A DNA stretch of 64,000 nucleotides. Source: Persicobacter sp. CCB-QB2 (GTDB lineage: Bacteria; Bacteroidota; Bacteroidia; Cytophagales; Cyclobacteriaceae). Within the stretch, counting starts at the first letter, position 1, and the number at the start of each line of letters is the position of its first letter. The stretch lies in the NCBI RefSeq assembly GCF_001274635.1, contig NZ_LBGV01000001.1:434001-498000 (forward strand). Direction: 5' to 3'. Position numbers and translations under genes: made by a program. The notes under the pieces are model-generated. The model ran no database searches. It saw only the letters and a list, made by a program, of their open reading frames with translations, and was not told the origin of the DNA. This document shows positions 1,494 to 61,757 of this stretch, piece after piece.

Positions 1494-1749
1494 ATGCTTT
1501 TTTTTGGTATTGCGGCTTTTTTACAAATGCTAGGGTTTAGCTATTTTGATTATTGATAGGAGCTTTCATCAAAAGCCAATCTAAAATTAGCCCCATTTCT
1601 TAACGCTATTGGCCGTTTCAATATCCCCTCTCATTCATTTTCAGGAAAAAGCTGCCCATAACTCGTTTAGGGCTGAGAAAATTTTATATTTTTGCTCAAC
1701 TCAATTGGTTTGAGCTTAGAAATCCTTTTTAGTAAGACCCCATTCGTTA
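1494..1749. other. Intergenic region between exbD and the acyltransferase
   Basis: After the exbD terminator about 255 bases carry no convincing gene. The only recognisable signal is a TATTTTTG -7-type box at 1687-1694. I see no clear copy of the dispersed repeat here. Confidence 0.5.
1687..1694 (+). promoter_or_regulatory. Candidate Bacteroidota -7 box upstream of plsC-like gene
   Basis: TATTTTTG matches the Bacteroidota primary-sigma -7 consensus TAnnTTTG. It lies 55 bases before the ATG. The -33 element is not convincing; a TTTA lies at 1666-1669. Confidence 0.4.
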
Positions 1750-2484
1750 ATGAAAAATCTGGTGGCGACCGTCAGTGGTTTTTTTACCTTCACTTTGGTG
1801 ATGCTTTTGTTATTCCCTCTTTTCGCCTTACTCTCCCTTAAAGAAAGTTGGCAGTTGACGGGACTGAGGTTATACCGTTTTTGGGGACGGATTTCATTAA
1901 ATATGGCAGCTTTGCCTACCCGGGTTATTTGGAAAGGAAACCCCTTACCTTCCGGTCAGCAATGTGTAATAGCCGCAAATCATGGTTCTTATCTAGATAT
2001 TCCCGTGATTGGAAGTGGTCCTATTTTAACCACCTTTTTGGGAAAACACGAACTGACGAAAATTCCCGTATTCGGTTTTATCTACCGTAAGTTCAGTATA
2101 GTAGTAAAGCGTGGTAATCGATCCAGCGCTAAACAGGCCATTGAACTGTGCAAAAAAGCTTTGGATAATGGGCTGAATGTGGCTATTTTTCCGGAAGGAA
2201 CCATTACCAAAACTCCTCCGCATATGGGGAATTTCAAGGATGGCGCATTTATCATAGCAGTTGATAAGCAGGTGCCCATAGTTCCGGTGAGTATGCCTTA
2301 TTCCTGGAAAATTCTTCCCAGGGATGACAGGCGTCCACAGGTACATGTACATCCTTCAATAATGATTATTCACGAGGCAATCCCTACCATAGGATTAAGC
2401 CATGATGATATTCCGAGGCTAAAAGAACAGGTTAAAACTATTATCGAACAAGAAATTAAAGCCTACAATAAGGATGAATATTAA
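1750..2484 (+). CDS. plsC: 1-acyl-sn-glycerol-3-phosphate acyltransferase (PlsC family)
   Basis: PlsC-type enzymes transfer an acyl group to lysophosphatidic acid to make phosphatidic acid at the inner membrane. The 244-residue protein has an N-terminal hydrophobic segment (about residues 8-30), the catalytic HX4D motif (His78 to Asp83 in NHGSYLD) and the substrate-binding FPEGT motif at 147-151. Length is normal for the family. Its end overlaps gatC by 11 bases, so the two are probably co-transcribed. Acyl-donor and acceptor specificity cannot be read from the sequence. Confidence 0.88.
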   Translation: MKNLVATVSGFFTFTLVMLLLFPLFALLSLKESWQLTGLRLYRFWGRISLNMAALPTRVIWKGNPLPSGQQCVIAANHGSYLDIPVIGSGPILTTFLGKHELTKIPVFGFIYRKFSIVVKRGNRSSAKQAIELCKKALDNGLNVAIFPEGTITKTPPHMGNFKDGAFIIAVDKQVPIVPVSMPYSWKILPRDDRRPQVHVHPSIMIIHEAIPTIGLSHDDIPRLKEQVKTIIEQEIKAYNKDEY

Positions 2485-2761
2485 TGAAGAAAGCCTGAAA
2501 AAGTTGGCGCATTTAGCCAGACTGGATTTTGATGCATCTGCCTCTGAGAAGATGGCGAAAGACCTGAGTGGTATTTTGGACTGGGTGGAGCAGTTAAATG
2601 AAGTGGATACAGAAGGGGTGAAGCCGCTTACCAATATGTCTCAGGAAATAAATGCCTATCGAGAAGATGTGGTGGGTAATCACCTGGAGCGGGAAAAGGG
2701 TTTAAAAAATGCCCCCGATCAGGATGGGGAATTCTTTCGTGTTCCCAAAGTATTGGACTAA
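2474..2761 (+). CDS. gatC: Aspartyl/glutamyl-tRNA amidotransferase subunit C
   Basis: A 95-residue GatC, the small scaffold subunit of the GatCAB amidotransferase that converts misacylated Glu-tRNA(Gln) or Asp-tRNA(Asn) to the amidated form. Family features are the N-terminal LKKLAHLARLDF segment, a central helix with KDLSGILDWVEQLNEVDT, and the C-terminal FFRVPKVLD tail. The start overlaps the end of the acyltransferase. GatA and GatB are not in this window; in Bacteroidota gatC often stands apart from them. Confidence 0.92.
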   Translation: MNINEESLKKLAHLARLDFDASASEKMAKDLSGILDWVEQLNEVDTEGVKPLTNMSQEINAYREDVVGNHLEREKGLKNAPDQDGEFFRVPKVLD

Positions 2762-2768
2762 AAGTGCT

Positions 2769-2991
2769 CCTTTTGCTAAATATTCACCCGATTTCGCGGG
2801 TTTAAATTGTTTAGCTTCAAGGCAGGAAAAAGGAAAGGATAGCACCCTATTTCATTTTTTTCAAAAGCAGCAGCAGAATAAGGAGCATGCAAGCTCGCCC
2901 AAATCAGGGCTATTAATAAATAAAGGAAACCCTATAAAAAGCACCTAGCAGGAATAATGCTATAAATCCAACGGTGCATTATTTGACTAAA
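2769..2991 (+). repeat. Dispersed intergenic repeat, copy 1 (forward, divergent)
   Basis: First of nine related non-coding elements. It shares the core motifs TTTAGCT-CAAGGC (near 2810), GCAGCAG..GAGCA-GCAAGCTCGCCCAAAT (2868-2912) and the right-end motif CGGTG-ATTATTTG (near 2972). The ends are more decayed than in other copies. It lies between the gatC stop and a terminator at 2991-3015. A 79-codon open frame across this stretch (2709-2948) has no counterpart in the other copies and is not called. Confidence 0.65.
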
Positions 2992-3015
2992 GGTACTGTA
3001 TGGCAGTGCCTTTTT
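2991..3015 (+). terminator. Rho-independent terminator downstream of gatC
   Basis: An 8-bp stem (AGGTACTG / CAGTGCCT, one G-T pair) with a short loop is followed by TTTTTG. It is separated from the gatC stop by repeat copy 1, suggesting the repeat inserted between gene and terminator. Confidence 0.7.
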
Positions 3016-3057
3016 GTTTTCAAAGGTTTTTCAAGGCAGAAGACTCACACCATGCCT

Positions 3058-3275
3058 GAACCCGGCTTATTCATGCTTAAATCCTTGTTCAGTTGCAGGT
3101 AGGGGGGAAGGGATTCTTCCTGTTTCAATTTTTTGCAACGAAGCAGATGAATGAGGAGCAAGCAAGCTCGCGTAAATGTAGGCTTTTTATAAGTCAATAA
3201 ACAACACCTTATCTAATCGGAAATAGGCCATTTAAGGCGAGCTACTGAATTTAGCGGTGAATAATTCGGCTTAAA
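3058..3275 (+). repeat. Dispersed intergenic repeat, copy 2 (forward)
   Basis: A well preserved copy. Left end CCCGGCTTATTCATGCTTAA at 3061, then ATCCTTGTTCAGTTGCAGG, a TTTTTTGCAACGAAGCAGATGA stretch at 3129-3150, GAGCAAGCAAGCTCGC near 3155, and right end AGCGGTGAATAATTCGGC near 3253. It ends a few bases before the TATTTTTG box of the next gene. Together with copy 1 and the terminator it fills most of the 545-base gap 2762-3306. Confidence 0.85.
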
Positions 3276-3306: not shown

Positions 3307-6237
3307 ATGAGCGATTCGATAAATTTTTGGAAACAGTGGCCAAAGCAATGGTCCTTTTTATTGGCTGGGCTGGGGTTTTTAGTGCTCTTCGCCATCTTAA
3401 CTTTTTTCTATTTTTATTTTGGCGGAACCGGTTTGGCCATTCACTGGAATTTGGTGAGTCAAACTACTGATTTTCCAATCGCACTACGCATGGTGGAAGT
3501 CGGAGCCATGGAAGCTCCCCTGGAAATGAACTTCCTGCTTTTACATCAATACTTTGAAGGCAGCCCTATTCAATATTCTTTCACTGGGCAACTGGTCTTT
3601 TGGCTGGCCTGTTTAGGGGCTTTTAATATGCTTTGGGCGGTGGTGAGTGGTTTGAATCGTTTTTGGTATACAGTAGGGCTTTGTGGTTTATTTGCCATAT
3701 TGGTGTATTTCAAACTGGAAGTGCTTATTCCATTCGGTCAGTTCTATAACTGGGGTTTATTATTAGCAGTGGTGCTTTATGGAGGGCTGTCCTTTTTGTT
3801 TCAGGCTATTCTTAGTCAAACGCCGCTTTGGTTAAGGTGGCTGGCTTTTGTGATTTTAAACGCGCTGCTTGTTTATGGATTTCACCTGATGGCAGAGGAA
3901 AATTTTGCCCTGGAGCGGGTGATGACCTATGGTGCCTTGCCCTGGGTAGTGCTTACCGTGGTATTTATTTTCATGGTCGGTATAGATAACCTTTGGTTGT
4001 TGTTTGATATGGTGAGTCGCAGGCAGGTCGTTGGAAATAACTTTTTCCACTTTATTGCGATATCTTTGTGCTATTTGGCATTGGTCGGCTTAGGTTTTTA
4101 TCAGCAGAATATTCGTTTGGAGGAGGATGCCCTCTTTTACAGTCCTTTTATACTGTTAGCGGCTTCCACATTGATTGGCTTCTGGGCCATGAAAGGCAAG
4201 GATATGAACTGGGGCCGGTTTATTCCTTTTCAGCCTTTGGGTGCTTTGTTATACTTGTCTCTAGCATTAATTTGCTGGAGTACCATTGCGCATTATTTCA
4301 TCACTGATAGCGACGTGATGCTGGATATGCTGGGGAAGATGGTTTACATTTTTCACTTTTCGCTTTCGTTGGTATTCTTTATTTATCTGTTCGTCAATTT
4401 TTCGGATATCATTCAGGCCGGTGCAGCTGCCCATAAAGTGGTTTTTAACGGGCGCAAATTTGGTTTAGGCACCGTTTATTTAATAGGATTTGGAATTGCA
4501 TTTTTGTTTCTGCTGAAAGACAGTATGGTTCAAAACAACCAGGTGCTGGCGGCTTATAATAATGCCATTGGAGATATGCATTATGCCCATGGGGAAATAT
4601 TAGAGGCAAAAGGATATTATGAAAAAGGGAGCAGGCTCGGTTGGAAAAATCACCATTCTTACTATGCCCTGGCCATGATAGCCAGTGAGGAAGGGAGAAA
4701 TGCTCAGGCTTTGGATTATTATAAGGCTGCAAATAAAAAACACCCCAGCCCCTTTGCCTTCGTGAATAGCAGTAATATTTATTTGCAGCAGGAAAAGTGG
4801 TTTGATGCCATATTTAGCCTAGAAAAAGGATTAGAACATTTTCCAAATCATCCGGAGATACGCACCAATCTTGCGCGTTTATACGAGAAAACGAACCAGG
4901 CTCAGGCTCAGGAACTTTATAAGGCCTTGATGGGTGATCCCGCGGTTGCGGTAGTGAATGCGGCCAATTGGTTAAGTTGGCATAAACGTTCTCAGGGGGC
5001 GCTAACTGCTGATATGATTCATTCTTTTGCGCAAAAAGAGGAGGTGGCTATTAATGCTAACTTACTTCCATTTGTGGAAGTAGGGAGTGAGATCAAAGAT
5101 TTTCAGTTGAATGAATTGGAAAGTAATTCACTTCCGGAAATTGCCCAGATTCACAATAGAAGTATCCACCAAATCTTTTTAGAGGATTCCGGCTGGGAAT
5201 CAACGCTTCAAGAATGGAAGGAAGAGGCACAATATGAAAGCTATCAGGCATTATTGGATTATGATTTAGCGATTTATCAATATGAAAAGGGCAAGGTGAG
5301 CTCTGCTATAGATGCGCTAAAAGATCTTTCTTTTAATAATTTTTTCAGCAAGTCTTTCTATGAAAAAACGCTGGCCCTTTGGATGTGGGAACTGGGAGAG
5401 CCTCAGGTCGGTCTGAAGCATATTCAGGAATGTCTGCGCTTCCCGGATCAGGACACCCGAAAATTAGCCTTTAATGCTTTTGTGGAAGCGGGTAGAGGAG
5501 AGGAAGCGCTTCGTTTGGCGGCTGATGAAAGTGATAGTTTGTTGGTAGCTCAATTACAATCGCCTGATATGCAGCAAATGGATAATGCGTCTAAGTTTTT
5601 ACTCATGCGTTATAATATGGTGAACTGGAACTTTGATCAGCAATTCAAAGTAGCACAGGCGATGGATGTGAATGCATGGAAAGTGAAAGCACTTCGTTGG
5701 TTATGGGCAGTGACCATGAAGTTTGACCAGTGGCAATATGTCGATCAGTTGGCAGTTGCAGTAGAGCAGGCGGACGGTATTGCATCAGATATTCGTCTTT
5801 CCAATGCTATTTATCAAGGTAATATCAGTGAAATCAAGCAGTATCGGGAAATGTTAGTTGGAGACTGGGCCCTGCTTTCTGATGCCGTTTTGGCAGAAAA
5901 TGCATCAGTACAGGAAGGACTTTCCGCTTATACAGAATTGTTAGAACGAAACCCATTCTTTGTGCCTGGTGTTGTTGCTGCCTCCCGGTTTTTGAATCAA
6001 TTACCGCAAAAAGAGGAAAGTTATGAGCTATTCCTTACCTACCTCAATAAATATGAGTATTCCATTCCATTGACAAAAGGGTATGCCGTTCAAAGTATTG
6101 CTATGGGATTGGACGGTTATGCTTTTAGTGCATTGGAGGAGATTAGTGCTTATGCTTCGCCACAAGCTTTTGAACAACTGAGCGCTAATATTGAGGGGAA
6201 AATAGTGGAATCAACTGAGGAAGAGCTTAGTTGGTAA
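3307..6237 (+). CDS. Large multi-pass membrane protein with C-terminal TPR-like repeats
   Basis: I do not recognise a named function. The 976-residue protein has about eleven hydrophobic segments between residues 17 and 406. A long soluble part follows with helical repeats of TPR type, for example around residues 420-560 (ILEAKGYYEKGSRLGWKNHH, then repeated A..Y...A spacing). The architecture of membrane domain then tetratricopeptide repeats suggests a scaffold in the envelope, but no partner is evident. The start at ATG 3307 fits the -7 box 19 bases upstream. It is flanked by a repeat-filled gap and a GC-rich inverted repeat at 6262-6287. Confidence 0.8.
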   Translation: MSDSINFWKQWPKQWSFLLAGLGFLVLFAILTFFYFYFGGTGLAIHWNLVSQTTDFPIALRMVEVGAMEAPLEMNFLLLHQYFEGSPIQYSFTGQLVFWLACLGAFNMLWAVVSGLNRFWYTVGLCGLFAILVYFKLEVLIPFGQFYNWGLLLAVVLYGGLSFLFQAILSQTPLWLRWLAFVILNALLVYGFHLMAEENFALERVMTYGALPWVVLTVVFIFMVGIDNLWLLFDMVSRRQVVGNNFFHFIAISLCYLALVGLGFYQQNIRLEEDALFYSPFILLAASTLIGFWAMKGKDMNWGRFIPFQPLGALLYLSLALICWSTIAHYFITDSDVMLDMLGKMVYIFHFSLSLVFFIYLFVNFSDIIQAGAAAHKVVFNGRKFGLGTVYLIGFGIAFLFLLKDSMVQNNQVLAAYNNAIGDMHYAHGEILEAKGYYEKGSRLGWKNHHSYYALAMIASEEGRNAQALDYYKAANKKHPSPFAFVNSSNIYLQQEKWFDAIFSLEKGLEHFPNHPEIRTNLARLYEKTNQAQAQELYKALMGDPAVAVVNAANWLSWHKRSQGALTADMIHSFAQKEEVAINANLLPFVEVGSEIKDFQLNELESNSLPEIAQIHNRSIHQIFLEDSGWESTLQEWKEEAQYESYQALLDYDLAIYQYEKGKVSSAIDALKDLSFNNFFSKSFYEKTLALWMWELGEPQVGLKHIQECLRFPDQDTRKLAFNAFVEAGRGEEALRLAADESDSLLVAQLQSPDMQQMDNASKFLLMRYNMVNWNFDQQFKVAQAMDVNAWKVKALRWLWAVTMKFDQWQYVDQLAVAVEQADGIASDIRLSNAIYQGNISEIKQYREMLVGDWALLSDAVLAENASVQEGLSAYTELLERNPFFVPGVVAASRFLNQLPQKEESYELFLTYLNKYEYSIPLTKGYAVQSIAMGLDGYAFSALEEISAYASPQAFEQLSANIEGKIVESTEEELSW

Positions 6238-6249
6238 GCGCATAATGGC

Positions 6250-6287
6250 TTGGTGAGTTTTGGCCGGTTTTTGTATTTTTGCCGGCC
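6250..6287 (+). promoter_or_regulatory. GC-rich inverted repeat enclosing a -7 box
   Basis: GGCCGG (6262-6267) and CCGGCC (6282-6287) form a perfect inverted repeat around a 14-base AT-rich centre. The centre contains TATTTTTG (6274-6281), and a TTGG at 6250-6253 sits 20 bases upstream of that box, normal Bacteroidota spacing. It could be a promoter with an operator, or a terminator for the TPR gene, since T residues follow the second arm. Confidence 0.45.
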
Positions 6288-6394
6288 TTTATCGTGATCT
6301 GGCTCAAAATATTACACCGGTCTTTTTTTTATCAGATTGAAACATTGAAGGCTTTGTCGTACTTACCAATAGGAAGTATCATTAAGTTAATTCA

Positions 6395-57434: not shown

Positions 57435-58019
57435 ATGTCGAATGAGCAAACAAAAGAAGTTACTCAGCTATTAAATCTTGCCAAAGATGGGTCTGAGGAT
57501 TTTGATGCTGGCCGTTTGTATGAAATGGTTTTCAGTCAAATGCATCAGATTGCTGAAAATTTATACCGCCGCGAAAGAACTGACCACACCCTGCAGCCGA
57601 CAATATTGGTAAATGAAGCCTTTATGAGCCTGATTGGTCAGGATCATATTGACTGGAAAAGTCGTGCTCATTTTTTTGCCGTGGGCGCCCAGGCGATCCG
57701 CCGTATTTTAATTCAACATGCCCGTAAAAAGCATGCCCTCAAAAGAGGAGGGGATTATACGAAAGTGGAGCTGGATAAGGCCGTCAACCTGACCGAGGAT
57801 GAGGGAGATCAACTGCTGGCGATAGAAGAATCTTTGAAGGAGTTGGAAAAAGTGCATGAACGTCAGGCCAAAGTGGTAGAAATGAAGTTTTTTGCCGATA
57901 TGAAAATGGAAGAAATTGCCCATGCTTTAGGGGTGTCAAAGAGAACAGTGGAAGTGGACTGGACGGTGGCACGTGCCTGGCTGAAGCGCTATATGGCGGA
58001 GCAATTGATGAATGATTAA
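57435..58019 (+). CDS. ECF-type RNA polymerase sigma factor (TIGR02999-like)
   Basis: A 194-residue sigma factor with the ECF_sigma pattern. Region 2 contains YRRERTDHTLQPTILVNEAF and FFAVGAQAIRRILIQHARKK, and region 4 contains KVVEMKFFADMKMEEIAHAL and GVSKRTVEVDWTVARAWLKR. In other phyla this group is often tied to a Ser/Thr kinase, but none is nearby. The next gene, 12 bases downstream, encodes a small membrane PH-domain protein that might act as its partner; that is inference. A GGAAC/GTTCC hairpin lies at 57395-57409 upstream. Confidence 0.88.
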   Translation: MSNEQTKEVTQLLNLAKDGSEDFDAGRLYEMVFSQMHQIAENLYRRERTDHTLQPTILVNEAFMSLIGQDHIDWKSRAHFFAVGAQAIRRILIQHARKKHALKRGGDYTKVELDKAVNLTEDEGDQLLAIEESLKELEKVHERQAKVVEMKFFADMKMEEIAHALGVSKRTVEVDWTVARAWLKRYMAEQLMND

Positions 58020-58031
58020 TAGCCTTCGCTT

Positions 58032-58451
58032 ATGGGAAAGGCAAAGATTTACCATTCAGCGATTTCTTGGGGATTGGTGATTTTCCTACTTTTTCCCTTG
58101 TTGGGCGTTATGATAGCGGACATTTACTTTCAAACTTGGATGGCCTCCGCTATTATCCTGCTCTCCTTACTTTTTATATTTTATCTGTATCAAACAACAG
58201 TCTATTGGCTGGAGGAGGATACGCGGGTATTGAGAATAAAATCGGGATTTTTGATTAATCAGCGTATTTCGATCGATGAAATATACAAAATTGAGGCCAG
58301 CAATAGTATGCTTTCTGCACCGGCCTGGTCTTTAAACCGGATCGCTATTTATTTTGGAAACAAGCAGTCGGTTTTGATTTCGCCCAAGCATCAGGAGGCT
58401 TTTTTGGAAGACTTGAAACGGTTAAATTCCGAAATAAAAATATCAGTATAA
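58032..58451 (+). CDS. Membrane protein with bacterial PH-like domain
   Basis: A 139-residue protein with two N-terminal membrane helices (about 10-32 and 36-56). A cytoplasmic PH-like beta domain follows (EDTRVLRIKSGFLINQ, ISIDEIYKIEAS, SVLISPKHQEAFLEDLKRL). Bacterial PH-domain membrane proteins are common but mostly of unknown function. It follows the sigma factor by 12 bases, so they are probably co-transcribed. Repeat copy 8 begins about six bases past its stop. Confidence 0.78.
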   Translation: MGKAKIYHSAISWGLVIFLLFPLLGVMIADIYFQTWMASAIILLSLLFIFYLYQTTVYWLEEDTRVLRIKSGFLINQRISIDEIYKIEASNSMLSAPAWSLNRIAIYFGNKQSVLISPKHQEAFLEDLKRLNSEIKISV

Positions 58452-58456
58452 TACGA

Positions 58457-58674
58457 TTAAGCCTAATAATTCATCTTTAGCAGGTAGGGTTAAGGGGTTA
58501 TATGTCAGACTCTTATCGGTGAGTTTGCTGATTTTTTTATAGTCCAAATTGGGGAAAGCAGCTTTCTCCCATATTCCTCTGCTTCCTTGGAAAAGAGATG
58601 AAATAAGCCACTATTCTTACATTTTCCTTGCCTTGCAGCTAAAGGAAGGTGCAAGCATAAATAATTCGACTTAG
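58457..58674 (-). repeat. Dispersed intergenic repeat, copy 8 (reverse)
   Basis: On the plus strand it starts ATTAAGCCTAATAATTCATC. Inside are TTTATAGTCCAAATTGGGG, CTTTCTCCCATATTCCTCTG, CTTCCTTGGAAAAGAGATGA and CCTTGCAGCTAAAGGAAGG; it ends AGCATAAATAATTCGACTTA. It separates the PH-domain gene from the terminator at 58676. The remaining gap to 58806 holds no gene. Confidence 0.83.
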
Positions 58675-58675
58675 G

Positions 58676-58699
58676 CGGACCAGCAGGTCCGTTTTTTTT
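58676..58699 (+). terminator. Rho-independent terminator downstream of repeat copy 8
   Basis: CGGACC and GGTCCG arms around AGCA, followed by eight T residues. It is probably the terminator of the sigma-PH operon, displaced by the repeat. Confidence 0.8.
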
Positions 58700-58806
58700 G
58701 TTGGTAAAAAAATAATGCTATATCGCTGACCTTTAGGGTGCTATTTCGTTTATAATTATTGATAAATTTCAATTTTTATTGAATTAACGGTCAAGCCCCA
58801 CTCTTT

Positions 58807-59007
58807 ATGGTCAACCTTTTCAATTTTCTTTTTGGGATTTTAGGTGTATATGTTATGCTCAGTTTATGCCTGTCGATGTATTTGATATTTAGATGGTTGC
58901 CCAAAAGGGATAAGACGTTTCGAAATTCTTCCTGGCAATTTAAATTGATTATCCTGCCAGGGATGGTTGCCTTCTGGCCAGTCGTATTATATACTAAAAT
59001 CAAATAG
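58807..59007 (+). CDS. Small integral membrane protein, first gene of redox-like cluster
   Basis: A 66-residue protein with two predicted membrane helices (about 6-28 and 46-62) joined by a basic loop (FRWLPKRDKTFRNSSW). No family name is recognised. Its start at ATG 58807 fits the amino-acid composition, whereas the antisense frame does not. It begins the cluster leading to a ferric-reductase/Rieske protein four bases or fewer from the next small frame. Confidence 0.65.
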   Translation: MVNLFNFLFGILGVYVMLSLCLSMYLIFRWLPKRDKTFRNSSWQFKLIILPGMVAFWPVVLYTKIK

Positions 59008-59011
59008 CTTA

Positions 59012-59107
59012 ATGGATCCCCTCCAACGAAGATACCATGCCAGTATATGGCCCCTATTATTCTTGATTACCCTCTTGCTCTTAATCTTTAGTCTGCCATG
59101 GGTCTAA
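59012..59107 (+). CDS. 31-residue single-helix membrane peptide
   Basis: ATG 59012 opens a short frame encoding a basic N-terminus (MDPLQRRYHAS) and one membrane helix (IWPLLFLITLLLLIFSLPWV), with a stop at 59105-59107. It begins four bases after the preceding gene and overlaps the next start by ten bases (ATG at 59098), which is operon-like spacing. Positive residues before the helix fit an N-in topology. It could be chance, so confidence is moderate. Confidence 0.5.
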   Translation: MDPLQRRYHASIWPLLFLITLLLLIFSLPWV

Positions 59108-60126
59108 ATTATCAAGCGGTGAGCTGGAACCGACAAAAGAAACGGTACGACCTTGTTATTTTATTGGCGGTCTTGGTCAGTTTAATATCCATTTGCCTTT
59201 TCCAATGGTGGTTGCATCCGGATATCACCCTGGAAACTTTGTTGCTCAGGGCGACGAGTGTAACCGCCTTTTTGATGTTGCATTTTATACTGAGCATAGG
59301 GCCCTTGGCCCGGCTGGATAGCAGATTCTTGCCTTTATTATATAATCGAAGGCACCTGGGTGTTGCCATGTTCATTATTGCAGCTACCCATGGCCTATTG
59401 GCGCTGATTCAATTTCATTCGCTGGGAGATCAACCTATTCTCACCAGTATGTTTTTGGCTAATCCTGATTACGGTAGTCTGAAAGAATTTCCTTTTCAGG
59501 TGCTCGGCTTTTTTGCCTTGATCATTTTATTTCTAATGGCGGCCAGCAGTCATGACTTTTGGCTCAAGGTCTTGAGTCCACGCCTTTGGAAAGCCCTTCA
59601 TATGTCCGTTTATATGGCATATGTACTAATAGTGGCTCATGTCGCCTTAGGAGCCTTGCAGTATGAAAGTCAGGAGTTGCTCCGCTATCTCTTGCTCTTC
59701 GGCTTTGTATTCATCGCTGGTTTGCATTTTGCCGCTGCCCGTGCAAGTAGCAGAGAGGCCCTTACTTCCTCTGAATGGGTAAAGGCAGTTGCTGTGGCGG
59801 ACTTGGAAGAGGGTTGCGCGAAGGTGGTTCTGGTGGGGGAGGAGGAGATAGCGATTTTCCTAAATAGGGGTAAAGTTTCTGCCGTAAATAACCAATGCAA
59901 ACATCAGCAAGGGCCAATAGGCGAGGGGCAAATTATCAATGGCTGTATTACCTGCCCCTGGCATGGATACCAATATTTGCCTGAAAACGGGCAATCCCCA
60001 CCTCCCTTTAAGGAGCAGCTGAAAACTTACTATTTGAAATTGGAGCAGGAAGAAATTTGGGTAAATCCCCATTCTCCCGGAGAGGGAGTACTTATTGAGC
60101 CTATAAACCTTTCAAAAGATGGATAA
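59098..60126 (+). CDS. Ferric-reductase-like transmembrane protein with C-terminal Rieske [2Fe-2S] domain
   Basis: A 342-residue protein with about six membrane helices (roughly residues 18-215), with histidines suitable for heme binding (MLHFIL, AATHGLLA, AHVALGA). A Rieske domain follows over about residues 230-325 with ligands Cys/His in NNQCKHQQGP and CPWHGY. This suggests membrane electron transfer from a cytoplasmic donor to the heme domain. The partner acceptor is unknown. It overlaps the next gene by eight bases. Confidence 0.85.
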   Translation: MGLNYQAVSWNRQKKRYDLVILLAVLVSLISICLFQWWLHPDITLETLLLRATSVTAFLMLHFILSIGPLARLDSRFLPLLYNRRHLGVAMFIIAATHGLLALIQFHSLGDQPILTSMFLANPDYGSLKEFPFQVLGFFALIILFLMAASSHDFWLKVLSPRLWKALHMSVYMAYVLIVAHVALGALQYESQELLRYLLLFGFVFIAGLHFAAARASSREALTSSEWVKAVAVADLEEGCAKVVLVGEEEIAIFLNRGKVSAVNNQCKHQQGPIGEGQIINGCITCPWHGYQYLPENGQSPPPFKEQLKTYYLKLEQEEIWVNPHSPGEGVLIEPINLSKDG

Positions 60127-60894
60127 AAAACCTTTTTATATCGGATGGGAAAAGAAAATGCCCGCATTTCATAAAAAAGGCATTTTTCCGCTTTTGCTGG
60201 TGGTTTTTTTACTTTTGCCCGTTCTGGCCTTCCTGTTGGTGTATACTCAAAAAGGATTTAATGATCACCAGTTTGAGCTTGGACAAATTCGAACTTTCCA
60301 GGGAGATTATTATGCTTATCCCGTACCCAGATTGGTGGTAACCGCGGACCAGGTGCCGGAAGGTTATTCCCCGGATATGCTTTTGGTGGGTTATGGGAAA
60401 TTTGGCGCAGAAGGCATTATGAATAAAGCTGCTGAGCAGATTGGTGTTCCGCTAAATGGTCGGAAAATAAAGGTGGAAGGCAGCCTTATTTATGGAGATG
60501 GAAAAGTATTGTTGGAGCTTAGCCCAAAACAAGCAGGTATCATTGAAATAATAGAGGGAAAGGTGGAGGCCATGGCCCTTTCCAGTAAGCAACGAGAAAT
60601 TCTGACCGGAGAAATTTTGGATCCGAAATGTTATTTCGGGGTGATGAAACCCGGAGAGGGTAAAATTCATAAGAGTTGTGCCGTTCGTTGTATTAGCGGA
60701 GGTATTCCGCCGGTTTTTCGATCAGGAAAGCCGGGGACTATCAATATTTTGTTTTGTTGGGGACGGCCGGCGAAAAAATCAATGCGGAAATATTAGATTG
60801 GGTTGGAGAAAAGGTGGAAATTGTGGCGGAAGTAAGTCAGTCCGGCGGGTGGCAAATTTGTGCTGTTAATCCCGAGGATATCAACCCCATTTAA
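60119..60894 (+). CDS. Hypothetical membrane-anchored protein, interrupted by a one-base frameshift
   Basis: A protein with one N-terminal membrane helix (about residues 22-43) and an extracytoplasmic domain. A motif-rich stretch reads GEILDPKCYFGVMKPGEGK, then HKSCAVRCISGGIPP, whose cysteines could bind metal or form disulphides. The G run at 60733-60736 is one base short; adding one G continues the frame to TAA at 60894, giving 258 residues. Function unknown; the position between the Rieske protein and PAP2 suggests a role in the same envelope system. Confidence 0.75.
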
Positions 60895-60906
60895 TCAACC
60901 CCTGAT

Positions 60907-61757
60907 ATGATTCGTGTGCTGCTAAGCATTAGTCTTTTCTTTTTACTTTTTGCAGATTCTTTCGCCCAGTCAAATGCTCGCATGGCTTCAGAGGCTATAG
61001 CGCCAGTTTATAAAGTGAATCGGTGGACTACCGGAGGTACCGTTGTGGTGGGCTATGTTACCAGCCAAATTGGATTCAATTTGCTGGGAATAAGCCCCGA
61101 ATTCCGGAAGATGTGGTCCTCGGGCTCAAGCGGGCTAATGTGAATGCCTTTGATCGGTGGGTGTTTAATTTTGATCCTAATGATCGTAAGCAGGCACAGG
61201 ATATTTCGGATCTGGGGCTTCGGGCCTCTGTTTTGTTGCCTATCGCCTTATTTATCGATAAAGAAATTAGAAAAGACTGGTTGGATGTTTCTTTAATGTA
61301 CCTGCAGTCCCAGGTCTTAGCACTGAATATTTATACCTACCTTGGAGCTGGTGCATTTGATCGTTACCGTCCGGTGACTTATGTGGAAGAGCTTTCTGTG
61401 GAATATCGAAGCGAAAGTAATAATGCCCGATCGTTTTTTAGTGGGCATACCTCCAATACAGCGGTGGCGACTTTTTTTGCTGCTCAGGTGTTAAATGATT
61501 ATCACCCTCATTGGTCGACCGGAAAGAAGGCTTTGATGTATGGCCTGGCAGCAGTGCCTCCGGCTTTTGTGGGCTATTATAGAATGAAGGGCTATAAACA
61601 TTTCCCAACAGATGTGATGACCGGCTTCGCGGTGGGAGCTGCCTCCGGAATTTTGATTCCTTATTTGCATAAGCGTAGCCAAAGAAGAAGTAATTTGGTG
61701 TACTTCCCCTTGATTAATCAGGATGCGATGGGTTTGTATCTGGAGGCGCGGTTTTAG
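60907..61757 (+). CDS. PAP2 family phosphatase, interrupted by a one-base frameshift
   Basis: A phosphatidic-acid-phosphatase-type protein with a signal peptide (about 1-21). The first frame breaks at the C run at 61095-61098; one added C joins it to the frame ending at 61757, giving 283 residues. The catalytic motifs are FDRYRP, RSFFSGHTSN and YRMKGYKHFPTDV. The substrate could be a lipid phosphate such as undecaprenyl pyrophosphate, but this is not decided. Its TAG stop codon lies in the terminal repeat of copy 9. Confidence 0.82.

Follow-up and report, generated by a model that had tools for sequence, protein, structure and literature searches.

We analysed a 64,000-nucleotide stretch of the Persicobacter sp. 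CCB-QB2 genome (contig NZ_LBGV01000001.1, positions 434,001 to 498,000), hereafter the window, and followed up a compact group of its plus-strand genes. The frames at 58807-61757 are tightly packed: two small membrane genes (s66 and s31), a gene for a ferric reductase domain protein with a fused Rieske domain (FRDR), a gene for an anchored protein with a cysteine motif (the Cys protein) and a PAP2-family phosphatase gene (Table 1). The initial annotation, which had described five tightly packed or overlapping genes with products of 66 and 31 residues at one end, is confirmed in this respect. The conserved cassette consists of four of the genes, s66, s31, FRDR and the Cys protein gene, at 58807-60894. 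It is real and conserved, apparently uncharacterised, and scattered through Bacteroidota and Rhizobium.

Table 1. Features of the cassette and the adjacent phosphatase gene, in window coordinates.
Feature	Coordinates	Strand	Description
s66	58807..59007	+	66-residue two-helix membrane protein, gene 1 of the cassette
s31	59012..59107	+	31-residue anchor peptide with a single helix; one of the short forms of the third-gene family
FRDR	59098..60126	+	342 residues; six-helix ferric reductase domain, C-terminal Rieske [2Fe-2S] domain
Cys protein	60119..60894	+	N-terminal membrane anchor, two OB-like domains (modelled); C171/H184/C187/C191; two frames
PAP2-family phosphatase gene	60907..61757	+	frameshifted; adjacent, outside the conserved unit; Pfam

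Genome contigs were scanned with the Cys protein, and the best 80 of 126 relatives were taken as relative loci; these come from Bacteroidota groups, with five from Balneolaceae or Balneolales. FRDR accompanies the Cys protein in 79 of the 80 and s66 in 76. Three of the four loci without s66 (L009, L028 and L079) begin close upstream of FRDR, and the fourth, L021, is also without FRDR. In 76 of the 79 relatives with both genes (L021 being left out), FRDR and the Cys protein gene overlap or lie at most 109 nucleotides apart; the gap reaches 1181 nucleotides in L033 and 236 nucleotides in L045, while in L052 the two proteins are one 635-residue open frame, a natural fusion. Pairwise distances within the two families are correlated (Spearman 0.60 over 3081 non-independent pairs, where shared descent alone gives some correlation). 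The initial annotation had named missing co-occurrence as grounds for giving up its idea: in our gene-neighbourhood survey four of the five genes stay together, but the PAP2 gene does not.

The same pairing holds across genome samples. The Cys protein matched 16 genomes of the phylum sample, three of which (G004, G078 and G228) have only a lone last domain of this type, in open frames of 136-164 residues, and were not counted as full; FRDR is found in 13 of the 395 genomes and the full Cys protein in the identical set. In the family sample both are found in the identical 22 of 196 genomes, and two other genomes of the window's genus have neither. Since the cassette is so patchy, loss or transfer is suggested. 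A scan of 72,556 plasmid records located the Cys protein in five, all from Rhizobium, and FRDR (coverage at least 97%) in the same five. Three annotated Rhizobium regions (of four) share the order short-chain dehydrogenase/reductase (SDR), 71-residue protein, 53-54-residue protein, FRDR, Cys protein and 69-70-residue protein, with a thiamine pyrophosphate (TPP) enzyme divergently upstream. Viral contigs gave 22 pattern matches and no relatives.

FRDR joins two recognisable domains, as the initial annotation had seen: both exceed their Pfam gathering scores, with 43.9 bits for Ferric_reduct (gathering 28) and 54.9 bits for Rieske (gathering 20.3). The protein has the defining features of the ferric reductase domain (FRD) superfamily, namely the Ferric_reduct score, six hydropathic regions and histidine pairs in transmembrane helices 3 and 5 (TM3 and TM5). 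All 80 of 80 sequences keep the canonical heme histidines H86, H98, H168 and H181 (window numbering) as well as the Rieske ligands C267, H269, C286 and H289, arranged as C-x-H ... C-x2-H. According to the parts of PMC3591440 that treat these domains, a canonical FRD uses two histidines in TM3 and another two in TM5 for its inner and outer hemes, and just two or three of them are present in most of the short bacterial forms; in FRDR there are four. We classify FRDR, from its sequence features, as a member of the wider FRD superfamily outside MsrQ and NOX.

The charge distribution orients the protein. With transmembrane segments assigned manually from hydropathy, the mean number of lysines plus arginines over 80 sequences is 3.42, 3.95, 2.64 and 4.09 in the segments assigned to the inside, and 0.10, 0.12 and 0.06 in those assigned to the outside. 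This positive-inside pattern places both termini of FRDR and its Rieske domain most likely in the cytosol.

The structure of the natural L052 fusion was predicted from a fusion alignment of the fused row, 24 read-through rows and 25 FRDR rows (predicted local distance difference test, pLDDT, 78.8; predicted template modelling score, pTM, 0.73). The model best matches Rieske ferredoxins (E 9e-6), followed by 5o0t, the membrane domain of NOX5 (E 6.8e-4, TM-score by target 0.60); the matches to STEAP4 (E 2.4e-3) and STEAP2 (E 2.7e-3) are weaker. The resemblance to small subunits of respiratory complexes put forward in the initial annotation is thus loose: small membrane proteins do lie beside a heme/Rieske protein, but its membrane part is of the NOX/STEAP/MsrQ type, and its Rieske domain resembles ferredoxins and most likely faces the cytosol. 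Rieske proteins of cytochrome bc1/b6f are extracytoplasmic and contain extra disulfide cysteines, whereas the CKHQ...CPWHG motif of FRDR comes without such cysteines in a predicted cytosolic domain; we rejected a bc-complex assignment. Export of the Rieske domain by twin-arginine translocation (Tat) was also rejected, there being no twin arginine before the last helix of the window sequence on inspection by eye; dual Sec-Tat export is treated in a portion of PMC5449189.

The cysteine-motif protein, listed as uncharacterised in the initial annotation, kept that status in profile searches. It has no NCBIfam match and no credible Pfam family; alone it gave no credible PDB sequence match, and a profile built from 64 sequences of its family gave 0 PDB matches at E up to 1 (the family-level negative covers Pfam, NCBIfam and PDB, with PHROGs and PADLOC outside the search). 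Residues C171, H184, C187 and C191 (window numbering) are invariant in 81 of 81 sequences and kept in three Rhizobium rows.

For the fold, 64 of 81 Cys protein rows were aligned, after 17 had been dropped by hand (the window's frameshifted row, the fused L052, L009 and mostly close relatives). The resulting model of the intact L002 protein (pLDDT 89.6, pTM 0.83) has one membrane helix (residues 17-44) and two mainly beta domains. The C-H-C-C residues lie in two short helices, 170-176 and 183-194, with the histidine and the last two cysteines on one helix at spacings of +3 and +7. For both domains the top VIA-align rows are mostly oligonucleotide/oligosaccharide-binding (OB) type barrels, such as NlpE, potempin and SSB, with middling Z scores of at most 6.6; the best row is NlpE (Z 6.6, 83 residues, root-mean-square deviation 3.8) and the best Foldseek E value is a weak 0.044. 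Because these matches are weak, no function was drawn from them. We propose that the Cys3-His site, on a predicted extracytoplasmic OB-like domain, probably binds a metal or cofactor. The Cys/His domain is an unnamed domain family that is also found outside the cassette. Three genomes in which FRDR was not found have small proteins made of this one domain, carrying the Cys/His motif and what looks like a signal peptide (L098:1318-1803, L099:1456-1836 on the minus strand, and L100:1423-1830).

In the window itself the gene is broken. Its first frame (60119-60796) stops at 60796 and a second frame at 60894; with the L002 protein as query, residues 5-204 correspond to 60128-60727 and residues 207-260 to 60730-60891 in a different frame, which locates the frameshift between about 60727 and 60735. 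The window frame is 225 residues long because this frameshift falls near the gene end; relatives have 257-348 residues (median 265), the longest including upstream extensions. The initial annotation was right about an anchored protein with a cysteine motif; the length of 225 residues is what needs correcting.

Neither s66 nor s31 has a credible Pfam match, yet both belong to conserved families. D35 and W57 are present in 77 of 77 sequences of the s66 family, and Y15, P51 and G52 each in 76 of 77; the Rhizobium 71-residue protein is its positional counterpart, similar to it by eye only. The third-gene family, to which s31 belongs, combines a conserved N-terminus, commonly LRKRHxxxW (RRYHASIW in the window), with one helix. 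Across 81 loci including the window, and with L021 left out of the counts, the gene is short (about 28-36 residues) in 16 (the window, L002-L015 and L020) and long (118-171 residues) in 61, of which 60 fall in one cluster, all between s66 and FRDR, and the other is L052. It has about 80 residues in L025 and was not found in L028 and L079; the Rhizobium counterpart, at the same place, has 53. As the third gene is conserved and mostly long, the 31-residue peptide is its anchor-only form. In the proposed complex, s66 and s31 would be small subunits.

Two kinds of cytosolic enzyme with Rieske domains of their own recur in the cassette loci, always on its strand. A Rieske plus glutamate-synthase (flavin mononucleotide, FMN) protein lies in at least 40 of the 80 relative loci and a Rieske plus TPP enzyme in at least 39; both counts are lower bounds, many contigs being short. 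Either enzyme is present in 48 relative loci, and 31 have both. In L055, where unusual fusions of Rieske with a glutamate-synthase FMN domain and with a pyruvate-oxidase-like TPP enzyme lie at 1570-3177 and 4371-6320, the best NCBIfam match of the TPP enzyme is pyruvate oxidase (392 bits, under the cut-off of 742). The window's genome encodes a Rieske-glutamate synthase about 78 kb away (70% identity); it also has a TPP enzyme, whose match, at 31%, lies beyond the Rieske portion. On the three Rhizobium plasmids the annotated TPP enzyme is divergent; the one that was scanned gave no Rieske match in its TPP enzyme. These plasmids also share a block in the same order, divergent from the cassette, of TPP enzyme, 160-residue hypothetical protein and TPR protein (L102:4000-7557, minus strand). 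On haloarchaeal plasmids, too, there are Rieske matches under annotated TPP-binding proteins. An SDR enzyme is found in 12 loci, and Rhizobium has a counterpart of it, 37% identical in one pair.

Reading the computed linkage, ligands, topology and predicted folds together, we consider it rather probable that the cassette encodes a transmembrane electron-transfer complex, a NOX/MsrQ-like conduit with a Rieske domain as its cytosolic electron port. FRDR would be a membrane cytochrome of the NOX/MsrQ type that holds a stacked pair of b hemes, the inner one held by H86 and H168 and the outer one by H98 and H181. Its Rieske [2Fe-2S] domain would replace the usual flavin adenine dinucleotide (FAD)/NAD(P)H module, and its outer heme would trade electrons with the anchored Cys protein. 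Likely cytosolic partners would themselves carry Rieske domains: the FMN glutamate-synthase-like oxidoreductase, present in the window's genome, and in many relatives the TPP-dependent pyruvate-oxidase-like enzyme. Electrons would most likely flow outward, from a substrate through the flavin/Rieske or TPP enzyme to the Rieske domain of FRDR, then over the inner and outer hemes to the Cys protein and an envelope acceptor. The new envelope electron-transfer system of the initial annotation is well supported by sequence: the four genes are linked in Bacteroidota and in Rhizobium, heme and Rieske ligands are invariant, and we found no open-licence paper on the cassette.

A bolder version, which we hold only tentatively, makes the cassette a new electron exporter and the common outlet of a 'Rieske network'. 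Rieske-tagged cytosolic enzymes would dock on FRDR by Rieske-Rieske contact and pass electrons over both hemes to envelope metalloproteins of a new class, with C-H-C-C in an OB-like domain, and the 28-36-residue peptide would be a true subunit.

Co-occurrence ties the tagged enzymes to FRDR, though with qualifications. The full Rieske-glutamate synthase is present in 12 of 13 FRDR genomes versus 36 of 382 others in the phylum (Fisher p 3e-11), and the Rieske-TPP enzyme in 13 of 22 carriers versus 12 of 174 others in the family (Fisher p 2e-8), tests that disregard shared ancestry. 'Full' means E <1e-190 (48 genomes of the 87 matched at 1e-40), a cut picked after viewing the list. The 36 genomes with the synthase and no FRDR indicate that it has another use. 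No Rieske-TPP enzyme was found in the window's genome (91.5% complete), and nine of the 22 family carriers, this one included, gave no match at the threshold used. In L021 the Cys protein has no FRDR within 16.6 kb, and in the window its frameshifted gene may be non-functional. The L052 fusion model (pTM 0.73) yielded no interface measure. These qualifications weigh against the proposed scheme. In the L002 model the C-H-C-C residues may face one another and bind a metal.

The C-H-C-C motif can also be counted for a rival reading, metal reduction and handling, in which FRDR would, like STEAP, reduce ferric or cupric ions at the cell surface, and the reduced metal would be received or delivered by the Cys protein, joined in some genomes by secreted YHS proteins. 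The weak fold matches of the L052 model to STEAP4 and STEAP2 point the same way. YHS domains bind copper, and in 14 of the 80 relative loci the cassette is directly followed, on its own strand and at a distance of at most 467 nucleotides, by a gene for a YHS-like protein (so named by eye from its sequence) that appears to have a signal peptide; this speaks for a metal link. Some MsrQ-like clusters also include an iron transporter, as described in part of PMC8238504. We nevertheless judge this explanation unlikely: Rieske-tagged cytosolic enzymes are commoner neighbours (at least 40 and 39 of the 80 loci), and inspection by eye, with no profile search made, recognised neither a metal transporter nor a TonB receptor in the 30 neighbour clusters that occur most often.

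Electrons could also run inward through the same proteins, a quinol or envelope donor reducing the hemes and the cytosolic Rieske domain feeding Rieske-tagged enzymes or oxygenases. MsrQ is termed a quinone-binding subunit in a passage of PMC8238504. The FRDR Rieske domain does resemble ferredoxins that feed dioxygenases, and the glutamate-synthase-like enzyme could take electrons reductively. However, in the cases known, TPP enzymes of the pyruvate-oxidase type donate electrons, and we saw no candidate gene here for an envelope electron source, so that inward flow seems to us quite improbable. That all five genes form one envelope or lipid-modifying pathway, as the initial annotation also considered, is very hard to credit: the window's PAP2 frame starts 12 nucleotides past the second-frame stop of the Cys gene, but PAP2 is present in 0 of 80 relative loci, and among 128 loci it is confined to stretches of the window's own genome.

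The PAP2 gene was accordingly set aside as a cassette member. Its domain is present, as annotated (Pfam, 59.7 bits), but is divided between frames 60907-61143 and 61023-61757, with an apparent frameshift at about 61085-61100, so the GTG start at 61023 is probably not the true one. Two apparent frameshifts thus lie less than 1 kb apart in neighbouring genes, the Cys gene and PAP2; they may be assembly errors or real decay. Upstream, 355 nucleotides from the cassette, 57435-58451 encodes an extracytoplasmic function (ECF) sigma factor (Sig-70_X6, 186 bits against a cut-off of 126) and a bacterial PH-domain protein. A promoter pattern of the Bacteroidota type was not found in 58452-58806.

If the proposed electron-transfer scheme is true, it would add a Rieske-driven branch to the NOX/MsrQ superfamily and define an unnamed family of extracytoplasmic, metal-site-like domains. 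It would also assign a function to the 31-residue peptide, which gene-finding programs may overlook, and predict that cytosolic Rieske-tagged enzymes are connected to envelope redox chemistry in environmental Bacteroidota and rhizobia. A search of open-licence papers turned up nothing on such an operon, on its small subunits or on the Cys protein. In 2013, PMC3591440 listed as model M4 an FRD architecture of bacteria with a Rieske domain among its parts, a possible counterpart of FRDR; the legend names FMN as well as Rieske for it, and the parts of that paper presenting M4 give no operon, partner proteins or function.

A first known system for comparison is the methionine sulfoxide reductase MsrPQ, whose MsrQ (YedZ) is likewise a six-helix FRD membrane heme protein with an extracytoplasmic partner. 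Unlike MsrQ, FRDR has a fused Rieske domain, all four heme histidines and an OB-like Cys protein as its putative extracytoplasmic partner. Against the NCBIfam MsrQ model (cut-off 130 bits) one Rhizobium FRDR scored 30.7 bits, and the model is absent among the window protein's 11 matches. MsrP is not annotated in the three Rhizobium regions, and none was recognised by eye in the 30 commonest neighbour clusters of the 81 loci, where no MsrP profile search was made. The NAD(P)H-driven flavocytochromes of the NOX/FRE type, such as SpNOX and NOX5, share with FRDR the four canonical histidines in helices 3 and 5 and the fold, but the cytosolic electron port of FRDR would be a Rieske domain: Pfam found no FAD- or NAD-binding domain in it, Ferric_reduct and Rieske-type domains alone. 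The same modular logic is seen in the MsrQ-like flavinylated extracytosolic systems, which, in the sections of PMC8238504 that describe them, combine an FRD conduit, a cytosolic donor module and an extracytoplasmic carrier. In those systems an FMN-binding protein flavinylated by ApbE serves as carrier and the donor module is often NAD-binding, whereas in the cassette the corresponding places would be taken by the C-H-C-C OB-like protein and the Rieske domain.

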